From Alphaproteobacteria bacterium (GTDB lineage Bacteria; Pseudomonadota; Alphaproteobacteria; Rhodobacterales; Rhodobacteraceae): a stretch of DNA of 40,119 nt. Shown piece after piece: positions 4,698 through 25,317 of the stretch. The number at the start of each line of letters is the position of its first letter. Position 1 is the stretch's first letter. The stretch lies in assembly GCA_013151335.1 (NCBI GenBank), contig JAADIJ010000070.1, forward strand, positions 1 through 40,119. Reading direction: 5' to 3'. Both the position numbers and the translations under genes were made by a program. The notes beneath the pieces are model-generated. The model saw nothing but the letters and a program-made list of their open reading frames with translations. It ran no database searches and was not told the origin of the DNA.

Positions 4698-5594
4698 TCA
4701 GCCCATGCTGGGCATCATGCCTTTTTCAATTGCCAGGCTGCGCATTTTCTTTTGCAGTTTTTCAAATGCGCGGACCTCGATCTGGCGTATGCGCTCGCGA
4801 CTGACGTCATATACGCCGGAAAGTTCCTCCAGCGTCACGGGGCTATCCTCAAGTTTGCGCTTCATCAGGATGTCTTTTTCGCGATCATTCAGATCGGACA
4901 TAGCCTCGTTGAGCAACTCGCGGCGCGCCTCAAGCTCGTTCTTTTCGGCGTAATCTCCGGCCTGATCTGCATCTTCATCCTCAAGCCAATCCTGCCATTC
5001 AGAACTGCCTTCGCCCTCGACCCCGATCTGGGCGTTAAGCGACGCATCACCCCCGGCCATACGGCGGTTCATCGAGGTGACCTCTTTTTCCGTCACGTTT
5101 AAATCATTGGCGATGCGGGCCAGATTCTCTGGCCGCAAATCGCCCTCTTCAAGCGCGCCAATGCGGTTTTTGGCCTTGCGCAGGTTGAAAAATAGCTTTT
5201 TCTGCGCCGATGTCGTGCCCATTTTAACCAGCGACCAAGAGCGCAGGATATATTCCTGTATCGAGGCCCTGATCCACCACATAGCATAGGTCGACAGCCG
5301 GAAACCCTTGTCGGGATCAAACCGTTTCACCGCCTGCATCAGGCCAACATTGGCCTCTGACACCACCTCGGCGGTGGGCAGGCCATAGCCGCGATAGCCC
5401 ATGGCGATCTTGGCGGCGAGGCGCAAATGCGAGGTCACGAGTTGGTGCGCGGCCCCTGAATCCTCATGGTCAACCCAGCGTTTGGCCAGCATGAATTCCT
5501 GACCCGGTTCCAGCATTGGAAACTTGCGGATTTCCTGCATATAGCGGTTCAAACCCTGTTCCGGCGATGGGGCCGGGAGGTTGGCGTAGCTCAT
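4698..5594 (-). CDS. rpoH: RNA polymerase heat-shock sigma factor RpoH (sigma-32)
   Basis: Alternative sigma factor directing RNA polymerase to heat-shock promoters, 298 residues, full length. Region 2 contains VVSEANVGLMQAVKRFDPDKGFRLSTYAMWWIRASIQEYIL. The RpoH box follows with SLVKMGTTSAQKKLFFNLRK, the segment that in other species contacts core enzyme and controls stability. Region 4.2 has a helix-turn-helix ([21 protein letters not shown]). Rhodobacterales often carry two RpoH paralogues; this one looks like the canonical RpoH-I, but the assignment is not certain. Only 64 bp separate it from the upstream rluD stop, so its promoter must lie there or over the rluD end. A sigma-32-like promoter in front of the Hsp20 gene at about 30.5 kb is a candidate target. 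Confidence 0.96.
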   Translation of the reverse strand: MSYANLPAPSPEQGLNRYMQEIRKFPMLEPGQEFMLAKRWVDHEDSGAAHQLVTSHLRLAAKIAMGYRGYGLPTAEVVSEANVGLMQAVKRFDPDKGFRLSTYAMWWIRASIQEYILRSWSLVKMGTTSAQKKLFFNLRKAKNRIGALEEGDLRPENLARIANDLNVTEKEVTSMNRRMAGGDASLNAQIGVEGEGSSEWQDWLEDEDADQAGDYAEKNELEARRELLNEAMSDLNDREKDILMKRKLEDSPVTLEELSGVYDVSRERIRQIEVRAFEKLQKKMRSLAIEKGMMPSMG

Positions 5595-6999: not shown

Positions 7000-7066
7000 G
7001 ATTTCGTTTGCGACATTGCGCACGAATCCTTGCAACCGACCGCCGCGCGACCGATATTGCCCCATC

Positions 7067-8998
7067 ATGAGCCTACCCCCCGGATTCCTTGACGAGCTTC
7101 GCACGCGGTCGTCCCTAGCTCAGGTTGTTGGGCGAAAACTGACGTGGGACGCCAAAAAATCCAACCCCGGCAAGGGCGATTATTGGGCTCCCTGCCCGTT
7201 CCATCAGGAGAAAACCGCGTCGTTTCATCTGGATGACCGCAAGGGGTTTTACTATTGTTTTGGCTGCCACGCCAAGGGAGACGCGCTTAGTTTTATCCGC
7301 GAGACCGAAAATGTCGGCTTCATGGAAGCGGTCGAGATTTTGGCGCGCGAGGCGGGAATGACCATGCCCGCACGCGACCCCCAAGCCCAACAAAAATCCG
7401 ACGAGCGCGCGCTGCTTATTGACGTGATGGAGCAAGCCGCGCAGTTTTTTGCCCTGCAGTTGAAAACCACCACCGCCAGCAAGGCGCGCGATTATTTGGC
7501 GGCGCGCGGCCTTAGCGAGGCGATGATAGCACAGTTTGGCATTGGGTTTGCGCCCGACAGTCGAACCTCGCTGTTTCAGCATTTATCCGGCAAAAGTGTG
7601 CCGGTTGAGCTGATTGTAAAGGCCGGATTGGCGATCAAGCCCGATGATGGCGGCGCGCCGTTTGATCGGTTTAGGGGCCGGATTATCTTTCCCATTCGCG
7701 ATCTGCGCGGACGCTGTATCGCCTTTGGGGGCCGCTCGATGGACCCGAATGCGCGCGCCAAGTATCTGAATTCGCCGGAAACTCCGCTGTTTGATAAGGG
7801 GCGAAGCCTTTATAATCATGCGCCCGCGCGCGAGGCTGCGGGCAAGGCAAACAGCCTGATCGTGGCCGAAGGTTACATGGATGTGATCGCGCTGGCGCAG
7901 GCCGGTTTTGCCCACGCGGTTGCCCCGCTTGGCACCGCGATCACCGAGGATCAGTTGCAGATGCTGTGGCGTTTGTCGCCTGAGCCGGTGATCTCGCTAG
8001 ACGGGGACACCGCCGGTTTGCGCGCGGCCATGCAGCTGATCGATCTGGCTTTGCCGTTGCTTCAGCCGGGCCGGAGCTTGCGGTTTTGCCTGCTGCCACA
8101 AGGGCTTGACCCCGATGATTTGATAAAATCCCAAGGCGCCGGGGCCATGCGCAAACTGCTGGAGGGTGCGCGCCCGATGGTTGATCTTTTGTGGCAGCGC
8201 GAGATCGAGGATAAGGTTTTTGACAGCCCCGAGCGACGCGCGGCCCTTGACGCCAGCCTCAAGGCAGCACTTGGCAAGATAAATGACAGCTCGATCCGCA
8301 ACCATTACGCGGCGGCTCTGCGCGAGCTTCGGGCGGAATTATTTAAGCCGAAAAACGCGCGAAAATCAGGTTTTACGCCTTGGAAGAAAAACGCACCCGA
8401 ACTGGCGACAGCCGGAGCCAAAGCCTCGCTGTTGGCCCAATCCGCAACTCCTGATCCAGAGGAGCGCATGCGCGAGGCGGTTATTCTGGCCATTTGCCTG
8501 CGCCATCCTGAAATTATTGCCGAATTTGAAACTGCGCTGGAAAAGCTGACCTTCCGAACGCCGGGATATGATAAATTACGCGATGCCGCCCTCAACGCCG
8601 CCGCGCAACAGGCGAGCGACACCCAAGCTGTTGCGAAAACACCGGAAATACCGCGCGATACGGTTGAAAAGCTGATGGCCCTTCGCCATGTGAAAATTGC
8701 GCCTGCATTACAGGCGGGAGCAGAGCGCGAAACCGTCGAGATGGCCTTGGCCGAGGAATTGGCCAAGCTGACGGCAAATCGGGGCGCGCGGGCAGAAATT
8801 GACGAAGCCATGCAGGATATGGCGGGTCTGGTGGACGAAGGGTTAACCTGGCGCTTGTCGCAAGCCGCCCAAGCGCGCCGAAAAGCCGCCCGCTCCAGCT
8901 TACCGGAGGACGGAAAAGACGGTGACGAGGGTGAAAACTTGTCAAAACACCTGCAAAACCTGATCGATGATCAGATTTGGGTAAAGAAAAAGCGATAA
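7067..8998 (+). CDS. dnaG: DNA primase DnaG
   Basis: Replicative primase, which synthesises RNA primers for Okazaki fragments in complex with DnaB; 643 residues. The N-terminal CHC2 zinc finger uses Cys43, His46, Cys64 and Cys67 (CPFHQEKTASF...YYCFGCHAKGD). The catalytic core includes the TOPRIM strand VAEGYMDVIAL at about 264 and a later SLDGDTAG metal-binding loop. The C-terminal region is helical and variable, as expected for the helicase-binding domain. The start at 7067 (MSLPPGFLDELRTRS) is chosen because it matches the family N-terminus; an open frame extends 17 codons further upstream. It is followed by rpoD, a widespread alphaproteobacterial arrangement. Confidence 0.97.
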   Translation: MSLPPGFLDELRTRSSLAQVVGRKLTWDAKKSNPGKGDYWAPCPFHQEKTASFHLDDRKGFYYCFGCHAKGDALSFIRETENVGFMEAVEILAREAGMTMPARDPQAQQKSDERALLIDVMEQAAQFFALQLKTTTASKARDYLAARGLSEAMIAQFGIGFAPDSRTSLFQHLSGKSVPVELIVKAGLAIKPDDGGAPFDRFRGRIIFPIRDLRGRCIAFGGRSMDPNARAKYLNSPETPLFDKGRSLYNHAPAREAAGKANSLIVAEGYMDVIALAQAGFAHAVAPLGTAITEDQLQMLWRLSPEPVISLDGDTAGLRAAMQLIDLALPLLQPGRSLRFCLLPQGLDPDDLIKSQGAGAMRKLLEGARPMVDLLWQREIEDKVFDSPERRAALDASLKAALGKINDSSIRNHYAAALRELRAELFKPKNARKSGFTPWKKNAPELATAGAKASLLAQSATPDPEERMREAVILAICLRHPEIIAEFETALEKLTFRTPGYDKLRDAALNAAAQQASDTQAVAKTPEIPRDTVEKLMALRHVKIAPALQAGAERETVEMALAEELAKLTANRGARAEIDEAMQDMAGLVDEGLTWRLSQAAQARRKAARSSLPEDGKDGDEGENLSKHLQNLIDDQIWVKKKR

Positions 8999-9006
8999 TG
9001 AGCATT

Positions 9007-9050
9007 GCGAATCAGTGATTCGCCGTGTTGATTCGCGCTAGTGATTCGCG
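9007..9050. promoter_or_regulatory. cluster of four GANTC (CcrM) sites upstream of rpoD
   Basis: Four GANTC sites lie within 39 bp: GAATC at 9009-9013 and GATTC at 9017-9021, 9030-9034 and 9043-9047. The three GATTC copies are embedded in TGATTCGC repeats spaced exactly 13 bp apart (9016, 9029, 9042). The first two sites also form an inverted repeat, GCGAAT-CAGTG-ATTCGC (9007-9023), that could fold as a 6-bp hairpin. GANTC is the target of the cell-cycle adenine methyltransferase CcrM in alphaproteobacteria and is expected by chance about once per 256 bp. Location between the dnaG stop and the rpoD start suggests control of rpoD transcription; this is inference. Confidence 0.6.
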
Positions 9051-9098: not shown

Positions 9099-11114
9099 AT
9101 GGCCGCCAAAGATACCGAAGCGACAAAGAACGATGACCAACCGAATTCGGCCGCTCTTGGCGACATGAGTCAGGCTGCGATCAAAAAGATGATCGCAGAG
9201 GCCCGCCAGCGGGGCTACATCACTTACGGCGAGCTTAACAAAGTATTGCCGCCCGATCATGTCTCGTCCGAGCAAATCGAAGACGTGATGTCGATGCTCA
9301 GCGAAATGGGCATCAATATTATCGAGGACGAAGAGGCCGAGGAAGAAGAGGCAAAATCAACCGACCTGGTCCAAACCTCGTCATCAAAAGACGTCACGAT
9401 CTCCACCGCGACCACCGAAGTTCTGGATCGCACCGACGACCCTGTGCGCATGTATCTGCGCGAAATGGGCTCGGTCGAGCTGTTGTCACGCGAAGGCGAA
9501 ATCGCGATCGCCAAACGTATTGAGGCCGGTCGCAAAACCATGATCGCCGGGCTGTGCGAAAGCCCGCTGACCTTTCAGGCGATCACCATCTGGCGCGACG
9601 AATTGCTGGAAGAGGAAATCCTTCTGCGTGATGTGATCGATCTGGAGACCACTTTTTCCGGCACACTTGAAACCGATGATGACGAGGAAGTGGGCGCGAC
9701 CGCTGGCGTGACCCCGGTTGCCACCACGACCACGACCACGACTACAGATGCCTCTAAAACCGAGACCCCGCCCGAGACCGATGCCGATGGCAACCAGATC
9801 ACCCGCGATGACGACGACGATGATGATGAGGATGATCAGGCCAATTTGTCGCTTGCGGCGATGGAGGCGGCGCTGAAGCCTCAGGTTCTGGAAACCCTTG
9901 ATCAGATCGCCTCGGATTTCGAAAAGCTTGCCGAAATGCAGGATAGCCGGATTTCGGCGACCTTGAACGAGGACAGCTCTTTTTCGGCCAAGCAGGAAAA
10001 GAAATATCAGGCTCTGCGCTCGGAGATCGTCGAGCTGGTGAACTCGCTGCATCTTCATAACAACCGCATCGACGCCCTGATTGACCAGCTTTACGGCATC
10101 AATCGCAAGATCATGTCGATTGACGGCGCGATGGTCAAACTCGCCGACCAATCGCGCATCAATCGCCGGGATTTTGTCGAGGCCTATCGCGGCTACGAGC
10201 TCGACCCCACATGGATCGACCGCATCGCCGAAAAACCCGGTCGCGGCTGGACCACTTTTCTAGAGCGTTTCCGTGCGAAAATCGATGATCTGCGCGGCGA
10301 GATGGCTGAAGTCGGTCAATATGTCGGCGTTGATATCTCGGAATATCGCCGCATCGTTAATCAGGTGCAAAAGGGCGAAAAAGAGGCACGGCTGGCCAAG
10401 AAAGAGATGGTCGAGGCCAATCTGCGGCTGGTGATCTCCATTGCCAAAAAATACACCAATCGCGGCCTGCAATTCCTCGATCTCATTCAGGAAGGCAATA
10501 TTGGCCTGATGAAAGCGGTCGATAAGTTCGAATATCGCCGTGGCTATAAATTCTCGACCTATGCCACTTGGTGGATCAGACAGGCCATCACCCGCTCGAT
10601 CGCCGATCAGGCGCGCACCATCCGTATACCGGTGCATATGATTGAAACCATTAACAAATTGGTGCGCACTGGGCGCCAGATGCTGCACGAAATCGGCCGC
10701 GAACCCACACCAGAGGAGCTGGCAGCCAAGCTGCAAATGCCGCTGGAAAAGGTCCGCAAGGTGATGAAAATCGCCAAAGAGCCGATCAGTCTGGAAACGC
10801 CGATTGGCGACGAGGAAGACAGCCAGCTTGGCGATTTCATCGAGGATAAAAACGCGGTTCTGCCGCTTGATAGCGCCATTCAGGGCAATCTCAAGGACAC
10901 GACAACACGCGTTCTGGCCAGTCTAACGCCGCGCGAGGAACGAGTTTTACGCATGCGTTTTGGCATCGGCATGAACACCGATCATACGCTGGAAGAGGTG
11001 GGCCAACAGTTCAGCGTGACCCGCGAGCGCATCCGGCAAATCGAGGCCAAAGCGCTGCGAAAACTGAAACATCCCAGCCGCAGCCGCAAATTACGCTCGT
11101 TTTTAGATCAATAG
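9099..11114 (+). CDS. rpoD: RNA polymerase primary sigma factor RpoD (sigma-70)
   Basis: Housekeeping sigma factor, 671 residues, full length. Region 1.1 occupies about 25-75 ([24 protein letters not shown]). Region 1.2 begins near [30 protein letters not shown] long non-conserved region follows with a run of eight threonines and an acidic aspartate run (about 205-250). Region 2 ([44 protein letters not shown]) and region 4.2 ([29 protein letters not shown]) are intact. The ATG at 9099 has GGAG upstream at a normal distance. Downstream of dnaG and behind the GANTC cluster. Residue ranges are approximate. Confidence 0.98.
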
Positions 11115-24024: not shown

Positions 24025-25317
24025 ATGGGTAAAGCGTCCGGCAAAGGCAAGGTTTTCTTGTTCCTACAAGGCCCGCACGGCCCGTTTTTCTATCAGTTAT
24101 CGCGAATATTGGCGGTCTCCGGGGCCAAGGTCTTTAAAGTTGGTTTCAACCAGGGCGATAGGTCGTTTTGGCACAACGACCAGACCTACCTGCCCTATTT
24201 TGGAAAGCTCGACGATTGGGAAGGTGAAATTCGCAAGATTTTGCGCTCCCACAATGTCACGGATATCGTTCTTTACGGTGACACAAGACATGTTAACGCC
24301 GAGGGCGTTCGCGCGGCAAAAGAGCAAGGCATTACCGTCCATTGTTTTGAAGAAGGCTATCTGCGCCCCTATTGGGTCACCTATGAGCGCGGCGGCGTTA
24401 ACGGTTTTTCGCGCCTTGTCGATATGAGCGTTGACGACATGCGGGCAGAGATACAAGACCACAATGTCGACCTGCCCGAGGCCCCGGCAAGATGGGGCGA
24501 TATGCGACATCACGCGTTTTACGGCGCAGTTTATCACGGGCAGATTTTGTTTCGAAACCGGGCTTACCAAAACTACCGCACCCATCGCGACATTAGTGTG
24601 TTGCAAGAATTCAGGCTTCATTTCAGGAAGTTACTGGCATTTCCGCTTCATGCTGCGCAGGGTCGTGCCGCCGCATTAAGAATACGGCGCGACGGGTATG
24701 TGTACCATCTGGCGTTGCTGCAACTCAGCCATGACAGCTCGATCCAGCACCACAGCCCGCTGAACTCCATGCCTGAATTTATTCGGCTGACCATCGAAGG
24801 TTTTGCTCAAGGGGCGCCCAATCACCACCACCTGATTATTAAGACCCATCCACTGGAAGACGGGCGTTATCCATTGCGCAAGATAACGATGGAAACAGCG
24901 CGGGCTCTTAATATTCAAAACCGGGTTCACTTCGTTCGCGGCGGAAAGCTCGCCGGATTGTTGAATTTTGCGCGCTCGGTCGTCACCGTGAACTCGACAG
25001 CCGGACAACAGGCGCTTGGGCATGGGCTGCCAGTGAAAGTGTTCGGCAATTCGGTTTACCACAAGCCGGAGTTCACGTCCGAACAACCTCTGGGTGAGTT
25101 TTTCGCCGACCCGTGGAAGCCGGACCCGCGCGCGTATCGCGATTATCGCCACTACTTGCTCAAGACCTCACAAGTCATGGGCGGGTTTTATTCGGCCAAG
25201 AGCAGACGCCGATTGATTCGCAGCGTGGTCGACCGGGTTTTGGCCAATCAAGACCCGTATGATTCGCTGAAATCCGAAAATGCGACGCCCCGGCAACAGT
25301 TGCGCGTGGTGAAATAG
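24025..25317 (+). CDS. kpsS: capsule polysaccharide biosynthesis protein, KpsS-like
   Basis: 430-residue protein of the capsule Kdo-transferase family (KpsS), which adds the first beta-Kdo to lyso-phosphatidylglycerol to begin the capsule lipid anchor. Family blocks include FLFLQGPHGPFFYQLSRIL, DIVLYGDTRHVNAEGVRAAKEQGITVHCFEEGYLRPYWVT, a central SSIQHHSPLNSMPEFI segment, HHLIIKTHPLEDGRYP and VVTVNSTAGQQALGHGLPVKV. It is cytoplasmic, acting at the inner membrane. It starts a plus-strand unit with the export lipoprotein and the KpsC-like gene. The gene symbol is by family. Confidence 0.88.
   Translation: MGKASGKGKVFLFLQGPHGPFFYQLSRILAVSGAKVFKVGFNQGDRSFWHNDQTYLPYFGKLDDWEGEIRKILRSHNVTDIVLYGDTRHVNAEGVRAAKEQGITVHCFEEGYLRPYWVTYERGGVNGFSRLVDMSVDDMRAEIQDHNVDLPEAPARWGDMRHHAFYGAVYHGQILFRNRAYQNYRTHRDISVLQEFRLHFRKLLAFPLHAAQGRAAALRIRRDGYVYHLALLQLSHDSSIQHHSPLNSMPEFIRLTIEGFAQGAPNHHHLIIKTHPLEDGRYPLRKITMETARALNIQNRVHFVRGGKLAGLLNFARSVVTVNSTAGQQALGHGLPVKVFGNSVYHKPEFTSEQPLGEFFADPWKPDPRAYRDYRHYLLKTSQVMGGFYSAKSRRRLIRSVVDRVLANQDPYDSLKSENATPRQQLRVVK

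Follow-up and report, generated by a model that had tools for sequence, protein, structure and literature searches.

The closest described counterparts of the locus reported here are the GcrA/CcrM sigma70 promoters of Caulobacter (ftsZ, mipZ and ctrA P1), which carry GANTC in the promoter region and, for the methylated promoters activated by GcrA, the extended motif YGAKTCG, as quoted in an excerpt of PMC7987155; as far as that excerpt goes, the GcrA targets of B. subvibrioides (Brevundimonas) have no such extended motif. In an excerpt of the review PMC7403470, GcrA is described as binding both domain 2 of the sigma factor and promoter DNA that is methylated, and as stimulating the formation of open complexes. 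More than one GANTC was counted at 11 of the 96 Caulobacter cell-cycle start sites that have GANTC within 50 bp upstream (excerpt of PMC4287350). Two other systems are related in part: the CtrA-bound rpoD promoters of Rhizobiales, with Brucella as the example, for which an excerpt of PMC2877005 cites CtrA of B. abortus as a protein bound at the rpoD promoter, and the repABC control regions, where GANTC clusters lie in the promoters of replication genes and affect promoter activity (excerpt of PMC11514494).

The array that we describe upstream of rpoD in Rhodobacteraceae shares with the Caulobacter promoters its GANTC sites in a presumed promoter region, the YGAKTCG motif, the presence of both CcrM and GcrA in the genome and a core cell gene as target. 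However, it mostly comprises three to five sites with conserved spacing where Caulobacter usually has one, its sites are GATTC or GAATC and not GACTC, and its target is the primary sigma factor itself. As in Brucella, a cell-cycle regulator would act at the rpoD promoter; in contrast to the repABC regions, the array sits at a chromosomal housekeeping sigma gene and not in a plasmid or chromid replication operon. This kind of GcrA/CcrM promoter is thus already known, whereas the architecture with several sites and the rpoD target appear to be new as far as the literature matches show: we met no report of a GANTC array at rpoD in the part of the open-licence PMC full texts that was covered, which is not proof of absence.

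The window, i.e. the whole stretch of 40,119 nucleotides that was analysed, contains the DNA primase gene dnaG (7016-8998, plus strand, ORF as listed and supported by NCBIfam and Pfam; translation may in fact begin with the ATG at 7067) followed by rpoD (9099-11114, plus strand), which encodes a primary sigma factor of 671 aa (NF004208, 909 bits against a cut-off of 555, and Pfam). Four GANTC sites, listed without strand, are packed into the 39 bp from 9009 to 9047 of the intergenic region between both genes: site A (GAATC, 9009-9013) inside GCGAATCA at 9007-9014, and sites B (GATTC, 9017-9021), C (GATTC, 9030-9034) and D (GATTC, 9043-9047), each inside a copy of TGATTCGC (9016-9023, 9029-9036 and 9042-9049, respectively). 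As GCGAATCA is the reverse complement of TGATTCGC, sites A and B together form GCGAATCA-G-TGATTCGC, a perfect inverted repeat with arms of 8 bp and a centre of 1 nt. The dnaG stop codon (8996-8998) is followed, after ten bases, by site A, and 51 bases lie between site D and the rpoD ATG (9099). A preliminary description of this DNA had reported four GANTC sites in 39 bp between dnaG and rpoD, three of them within repeats at exact 13-bp steps, and a small inverted repeat formed by the first pair; all of this agrees with our reading. Two side observations concern the surroundings: the RpoD protein encoded at 9099-11114 contains one threonine run (TTTTTTT) and one aspartate run, and the opposite strand carries, at a distance of 3.5 kb from rpoD, a sigma-32-like ORF (window 4698-5594) that its sequence marks as rpoH and that has no GANTC within the 166 bp upstream of its start.

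The background frequency of GANTC was estimated in 440 kb of the same genome (larger contigs, window included) and in 400 kb of a relative, G066. The preliminary description had expected a GANTC about once per 256 bp, which overstates the frequency in this genome. The pentamer is depleted: the window contains 34 sites where shuffled sequences average 169, and the 440-kb sample contains 388 (0.88 per kb), making GANTC the rarest of eight pentamers of equal composition (the others ranging from 642 to 2011). No GANTC cluster of this sample is denser than the rpoD array, the only one to hold four sites within about 40 bp; at the sampled rate, a whole genome is expected to hold about 0.013 groups of four sites in 39 bp. 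The mismatch-free 13-bp tandem of TGATTCGC is likewise unique to the rpoD array in the 3.29-Mb assembly, in which TGATTCGC occurs 54 times, the four copies of the array included; a further pair of TGATTCGC, at 25214 and 25260, was noticed in an apparently coding stretch of the window. In G066, two clusters of three GANTC within 60 bp were found, one sixth of their sites being of the YGATTCG type. The same 400 kb contain a single pair of YGATTCG within 30 bp, two intergenic CGAATCA (L288:2252-2270, at 2252 and 2266) that are 14 bp apart.

Conservation was assessed in the 300 bp upstream of rpoD by counting GANTC sites within 60 bp, in 118 Rhodobacteraceae and 34 other Alphaproteobacteria. The former comprise 10 members of the genus (our genome included), 88 genomes of other genera and 20 named records. 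The family draw contained 180 genomes, of which 173 had an RpoD at threshold, 171 of these outside the genus of the window; 88 of the 171 were used, namely 28 whose loci came with the draw and 60 taken by order of RpoD score, leaving out G158, G020 and G102 (in all three the RpoD match begins at residue 3) and G148. The named records come from the best 80 of 441 loci, with 20 of the 21 Rhodobacteraceae-like ones used (L197 is without its N-terminus) and 34 of the 59 from other Alphaproteobacteria, picked for spread; for these, the nearest ATG was taken as the start codon, which may be wrong by some codons.

At least two GANTC within 60 bp were found in all 118 Rhodobacteraceae but in only 2 of the 34 other Alphaproteobacteria, and at least three in 111 of the 118 (genus 10/10, other genera 82/88, named Rhodobacteraceae 19/20) against none of the 34. 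The best-matching named RpoD records are themselves Rhodobacteraceae that carry the same array, which is the ground for assigning the drawn genomes to that family here. Three loci (L147, which corresponds to G065, L179 and L193) had no array when only 150 bp were counted, but it is present further upstream within 300 bp. Dinucleotide shuffles of the rpoD upstream stretches reached three sites in 1.7 to 3.4% of cases. Four control pentamers of equal composition were also counted: three copies within 60 bp were seen for CANTG in three of the 10 genomes of the genus, two of the 20 named Rhodobacteraceae and one of the 34 other Alphaproteobacteria, and for TCNGA in 2 of the 88 genomes of other genera, the remaining control counts being zero. 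An array confined to this genome and absent from close relatives, which the preliminary description had named as the result that would speak against it, is therefore not what we see, since the sites are kept throughout the genus and beyond it. The array element at rpoD is a real feature, strongly conserved across the Rhodobacteraceae examined.

These counts also bear on the simplest alternative, a functionless, repeat-rich spacer produced by chance. Slippage could generate short repeats of this kind, but the spacer letters vary among relatives while the GANTC sites stay in every one of them, and the background rate makes even one such cluster per genome an exceptional event. We rejected chance on both grounds, cross-genus conservation and background rate, and regard it as extremely improbable.

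The spacing of the sites is conserved as well: a GANTC pair 21 or 22 bp apart (A to C in the window) occurs in 95 of the 118 Rhodobacteraceae and a pair 13 or 14 bp apart in 88. The exact 13-bp series of three GATTC seen in the window is found in only 8. The periodic array put forward in the preliminary description thus holds as an array, its exact 13-bp period being a local version. Sites 21 bp apart would stand two helical turns from each other.

The inverted pair GAATC-N3-GATTC (A and B in the window) is confined to part of the family and was found in 29 of the 118. The ability of these two sites to pair raises the alternative that the repeats act as a hairpin of RNA or DNA, either a terminator of dnaG or a structure in the rpoD leader. 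A terminator-like match at 9007-9023 (2 sites in the region, 0.7 expected) and a leader that folds somewhat better than its shuffles (z -2.2) agree with it, but the predicted stem is short and without a clean T run, Rfam gives no match, and the pairing half of the array is not conserved, although the relatives keep at least two sites without exception. We consider a hairpin role very improbable and rejected the terminator or RNA-leader reading, the fold, the terminator scan and the Rfam search giving weak hints at most.

A promoter may be placed at the array by aligning the family. Site C, defined as a GATTC that has a second GANTC 19-23 bp upstream of it, can be set in 94 of the 118 Rhodobacteraceae, and the hexamer that precedes it is GCTATT in 10, GCTAAT in 9 and GTTATT in 5 of them. 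Counted over the same 94 hexamers, the third letter is T in 50, the fourth A in 48, the fifth A or T in 85 and the sixth T in 87. The -10 box of Alphaproteobacteria is GCTANAWC, which this hexamer resembles, though the likeness is loose across the family, the commonest single hexamer accounting for 10 of 94. Such a -10-like hexamer often lies within the array in the family, which bears on the rpoD promoter elsewhere that the preliminary description had listed as a refuting result. In the window, the candidate -10 according to the family alignment is CGTGTT (9024-9029, plus strand), degenerate in this genus, and an alternative -10-like hexamer, GCTAGT (9037-9042, plus strand), lies directly before site D; either could be the -10 box. 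A scan of the region with the sigma70 consensus called no promoter, neither at CGTGTT nor at GCTAGT, and no clear -35 box appears in the aligned family upstream regions.

Considering 327 of the 329 GAWTC sites found in the 150 bp upstream of rpoD in the 88 genomes of other genera, the preceding letter is Y in 315 and the following letter is G in 297, which gives YGATTCG as the consensus at the rpoD sites of the family; in the window, all four sites conform to YGAKTCG. The flanks of the rpoD array therefore fit the motif published for Caulobacter GcrA. In the 440-kb sample as a whole, YGAKTCG accounts for 89 of the 388 GANTC, the four of the array included, and it is not significantly enriched in intergenic regions, neither in this genome (20/64 intergenic, with the four of the array, against 69/324 coding, p = 0.10) nor in G066 (6/56 against 42/497, p = 0.61), the ORFs used for this split having been called by a simple script. 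As no significant intergenic enrichment was found elsewhere, the motif may be peculiar to rpoD.

Both proteins needed for a methylation-dependent promoter of this kind are encoded in the genome. GcrA is present in one copy (PF07750, 165 bits against a cut-off of 26.9; NF050816, 160 bits, which is below the curated equivalog cut-off of 280), and its DNA-binding and sigma-binding parts align with the GcrA chains of PDB entries 5yiu (residues 1-45) and 5yix (135-187). A GcrA was found in 25 of the 25 family genomes checked, ours included. The CcrM orthologue has PF01555 and RAMA domains, matches NF050803 over its length with 631 bits, below the curated equivalog cut-off of 830, and aligns with PDB 6pbd (CcrMI) over residues 6-355, nearly its whole length. 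The absence of a CcrM gene, which the preliminary description had held to be fatal to a link with CcrM, can thus be dismissed on the evidence of the profiles and of the 6pbd alignment; this link gains further strength from GcrA, which is encoded too, and from the agreement of the flanks with the motif published for it. The interpretation given there, an array linked to CcrM that could tie rpoD to the cell cycle, is supported in part. That description had also proposed a repeat-recognising protein as an alternative reader of the array, for which GcrA itself is the best candidate.

A regulator of Rhodobacteraceae other than GcrA could nevertheless bind the YGATTCG repeats, the GANTC core being incidental or its methylation merely tuning the binding. 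Such a protein would suit three observations: a mere methylation site would not call for flanks nearly as uniform as these, YGATTCG is rare elsewhere (24 occurrences in the 400 kb of G066), and other intergenic GANTC show no significant preference for such flanks. However, these flanks are those reported for GcrA promoters in the PMC7987155 excerpt, GcrA is found in every family genome checked, and, within the 440-kb sample, the one further GANTC cluster with three sites adjoins ccrM.

That second cluster lies directly upstream of ccrM (L266:15173-15211, i.e. C64 from 35173 onward). We surveyed the ccrM upstream regions of 30 loci from the 174 of 180 family genomes in which a CcrM was found: a TTGAC box followed by GANTC-N6-GANTC (11 bp apart) is present in 29 of the 30, and at least three GANTC within 60 bp in 22. 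The rpoD and ccrM clusters, which are the strongest in the 440-kb sample, thus belong to the sigma factor on which GcrA works and to the methylase that marks its sites. The ORF that precedes ccrM is rnhB-like by eye.

GcrA has a match in all six family genomes that lack a strong one for CcrM, and four of these genomes could be compared at rpoD (G082 and G121 were left out for their partial RpoD matches). G053 has no CcrM orthologue and no GANTC in the 420 bp upstream of rpoD; G023 has no CcrM orthologue and no GANTC cluster in the stretch read, its rpoD start being uncertain; and G046 has a CcrM fragment together with an rpoD array. In G128, five clustered GANTC stand upstream of rpoD (L332) while no CcrM orthologue was found in an assembly that is 97% complete, which reflects either an assembly gap at ccrM or an array that works without CcrM. 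An array kept where CcrM was not found is a further point for a regulator other than GcrA, an explanation that, on the whole of this evidence, we judge unlikely.

Outside the family, the rpoD upstream regions were also read for the CtrA-type box, TTAA-N7-TTAA. Among the 34 other Alphaproteobacteria, 9 have this box in the 300 bp before rpoD, all nine of Rhizobiales type by their record names, whereas it occurs in none of the 118 Rhodobacteraceae upstream regions of the same length, which have the GANTC array instead; we consequently rejected CtrA control of rpoD for Rhodobacteraceae. This suggests that different orders may have different cell-cycle regulators controlling the sigma gene. As a separate observation, four Rhizobiaceae (L201, L205, L206 and L212) have TTAA-N7-TTAA some 127-133 bp ahead of the rpoD start as assigned and a TGATTCG 42 bp further downstream.

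Taking together the array, its conservation and spacing, the flanks of its motif, the genes for CcrM and GcrA and the ccrM array, we think it likely that the array senses methylation within a CcrM-methylated rpoD promoter of the GcrA/sigma70 type. In the mechanism that we propose from these sequences, a predicted sigma70-type promoter would drive rpoD separately from dnaG, and CcrM would methylate all four GANTC sites. GcrA, carried by the sigma70 holoenzyme, would then read the methylated YGATTCG around and just downstream of the -10 box and speed open-complex formation, the effect being presumably an activation. Passage of the replication fork would leave the sites hemimethylated until their later re-methylation, so that rpoD output could depend on replication and on how much CcrM and GcrA the cell contains, possibly as a rhythm of the cell cycle. 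As the gene of the sigma factor would be under the control of its own cofactor GcrA, a feedback loop would result. G053, in which neither a CcrM orthologue nor the sites were found, speaks for this reading. Counting against it are the array of G128, flanks that show no significant intergenic preference elsewhere, the lack of an extended motif at the B. subvibrioides targets, a loose -10-like hexamer with no clear -35 box and no sigma70 call, the CANTG counts in the genus, and CcrM and GcrA scores below the curated equivalog cut-offs.

The same sites could also serve as a timer that does without activation by GcrA, hemimethylated GANTC keeping the promoter off or delayed after replication, as in sequestration. 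Clustered sites might slow full re-methylation or make it more switch-like, and an excerpt of PMC11514494 proposes for Agrobacterium that full methylation lowers the activity of the gcrA promoter. Conserved spacing with a -10-like hexamer, however, suits better an activator that acts with sigma. We also know of no protein that reads clustered hemimethylated GANTC in the way such a timer needs, which counts against it, and we find this explanation improbable.

Returning to a promoter read by GcrA, we advance more speculatively a possibility that we ourselves hold with some doubt: the rpoD promoter may be a graded methylation counter, in which the number of methylated YGATTCG, as read by GcrA, would set the supply of sigma70 after each replication. 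The sister array at ccrM would do the same for the methylase, closing the loop, and this arrangement would replace in Rhodobacteraceae the CtrA control of rpoD that the boxes of Rhizobiales suggest.

How much housekeeping transcription a cell can carry out in all is set by its primary sigma factor. Since a dense GANTC cluster stands at the likely rpoD promoter and is kept in every relative examined, this factor is probably adjusted by the methylation system of the cell cycle; in other words, Rhodobacteraceae probably adjust their master transcription factor through cell-cycle DNA methylation. A family-wide array of methylation sites at the rpoD promoter would mean that the epigenetic system of the cell cycle acts on the supply of sigma70 itself.
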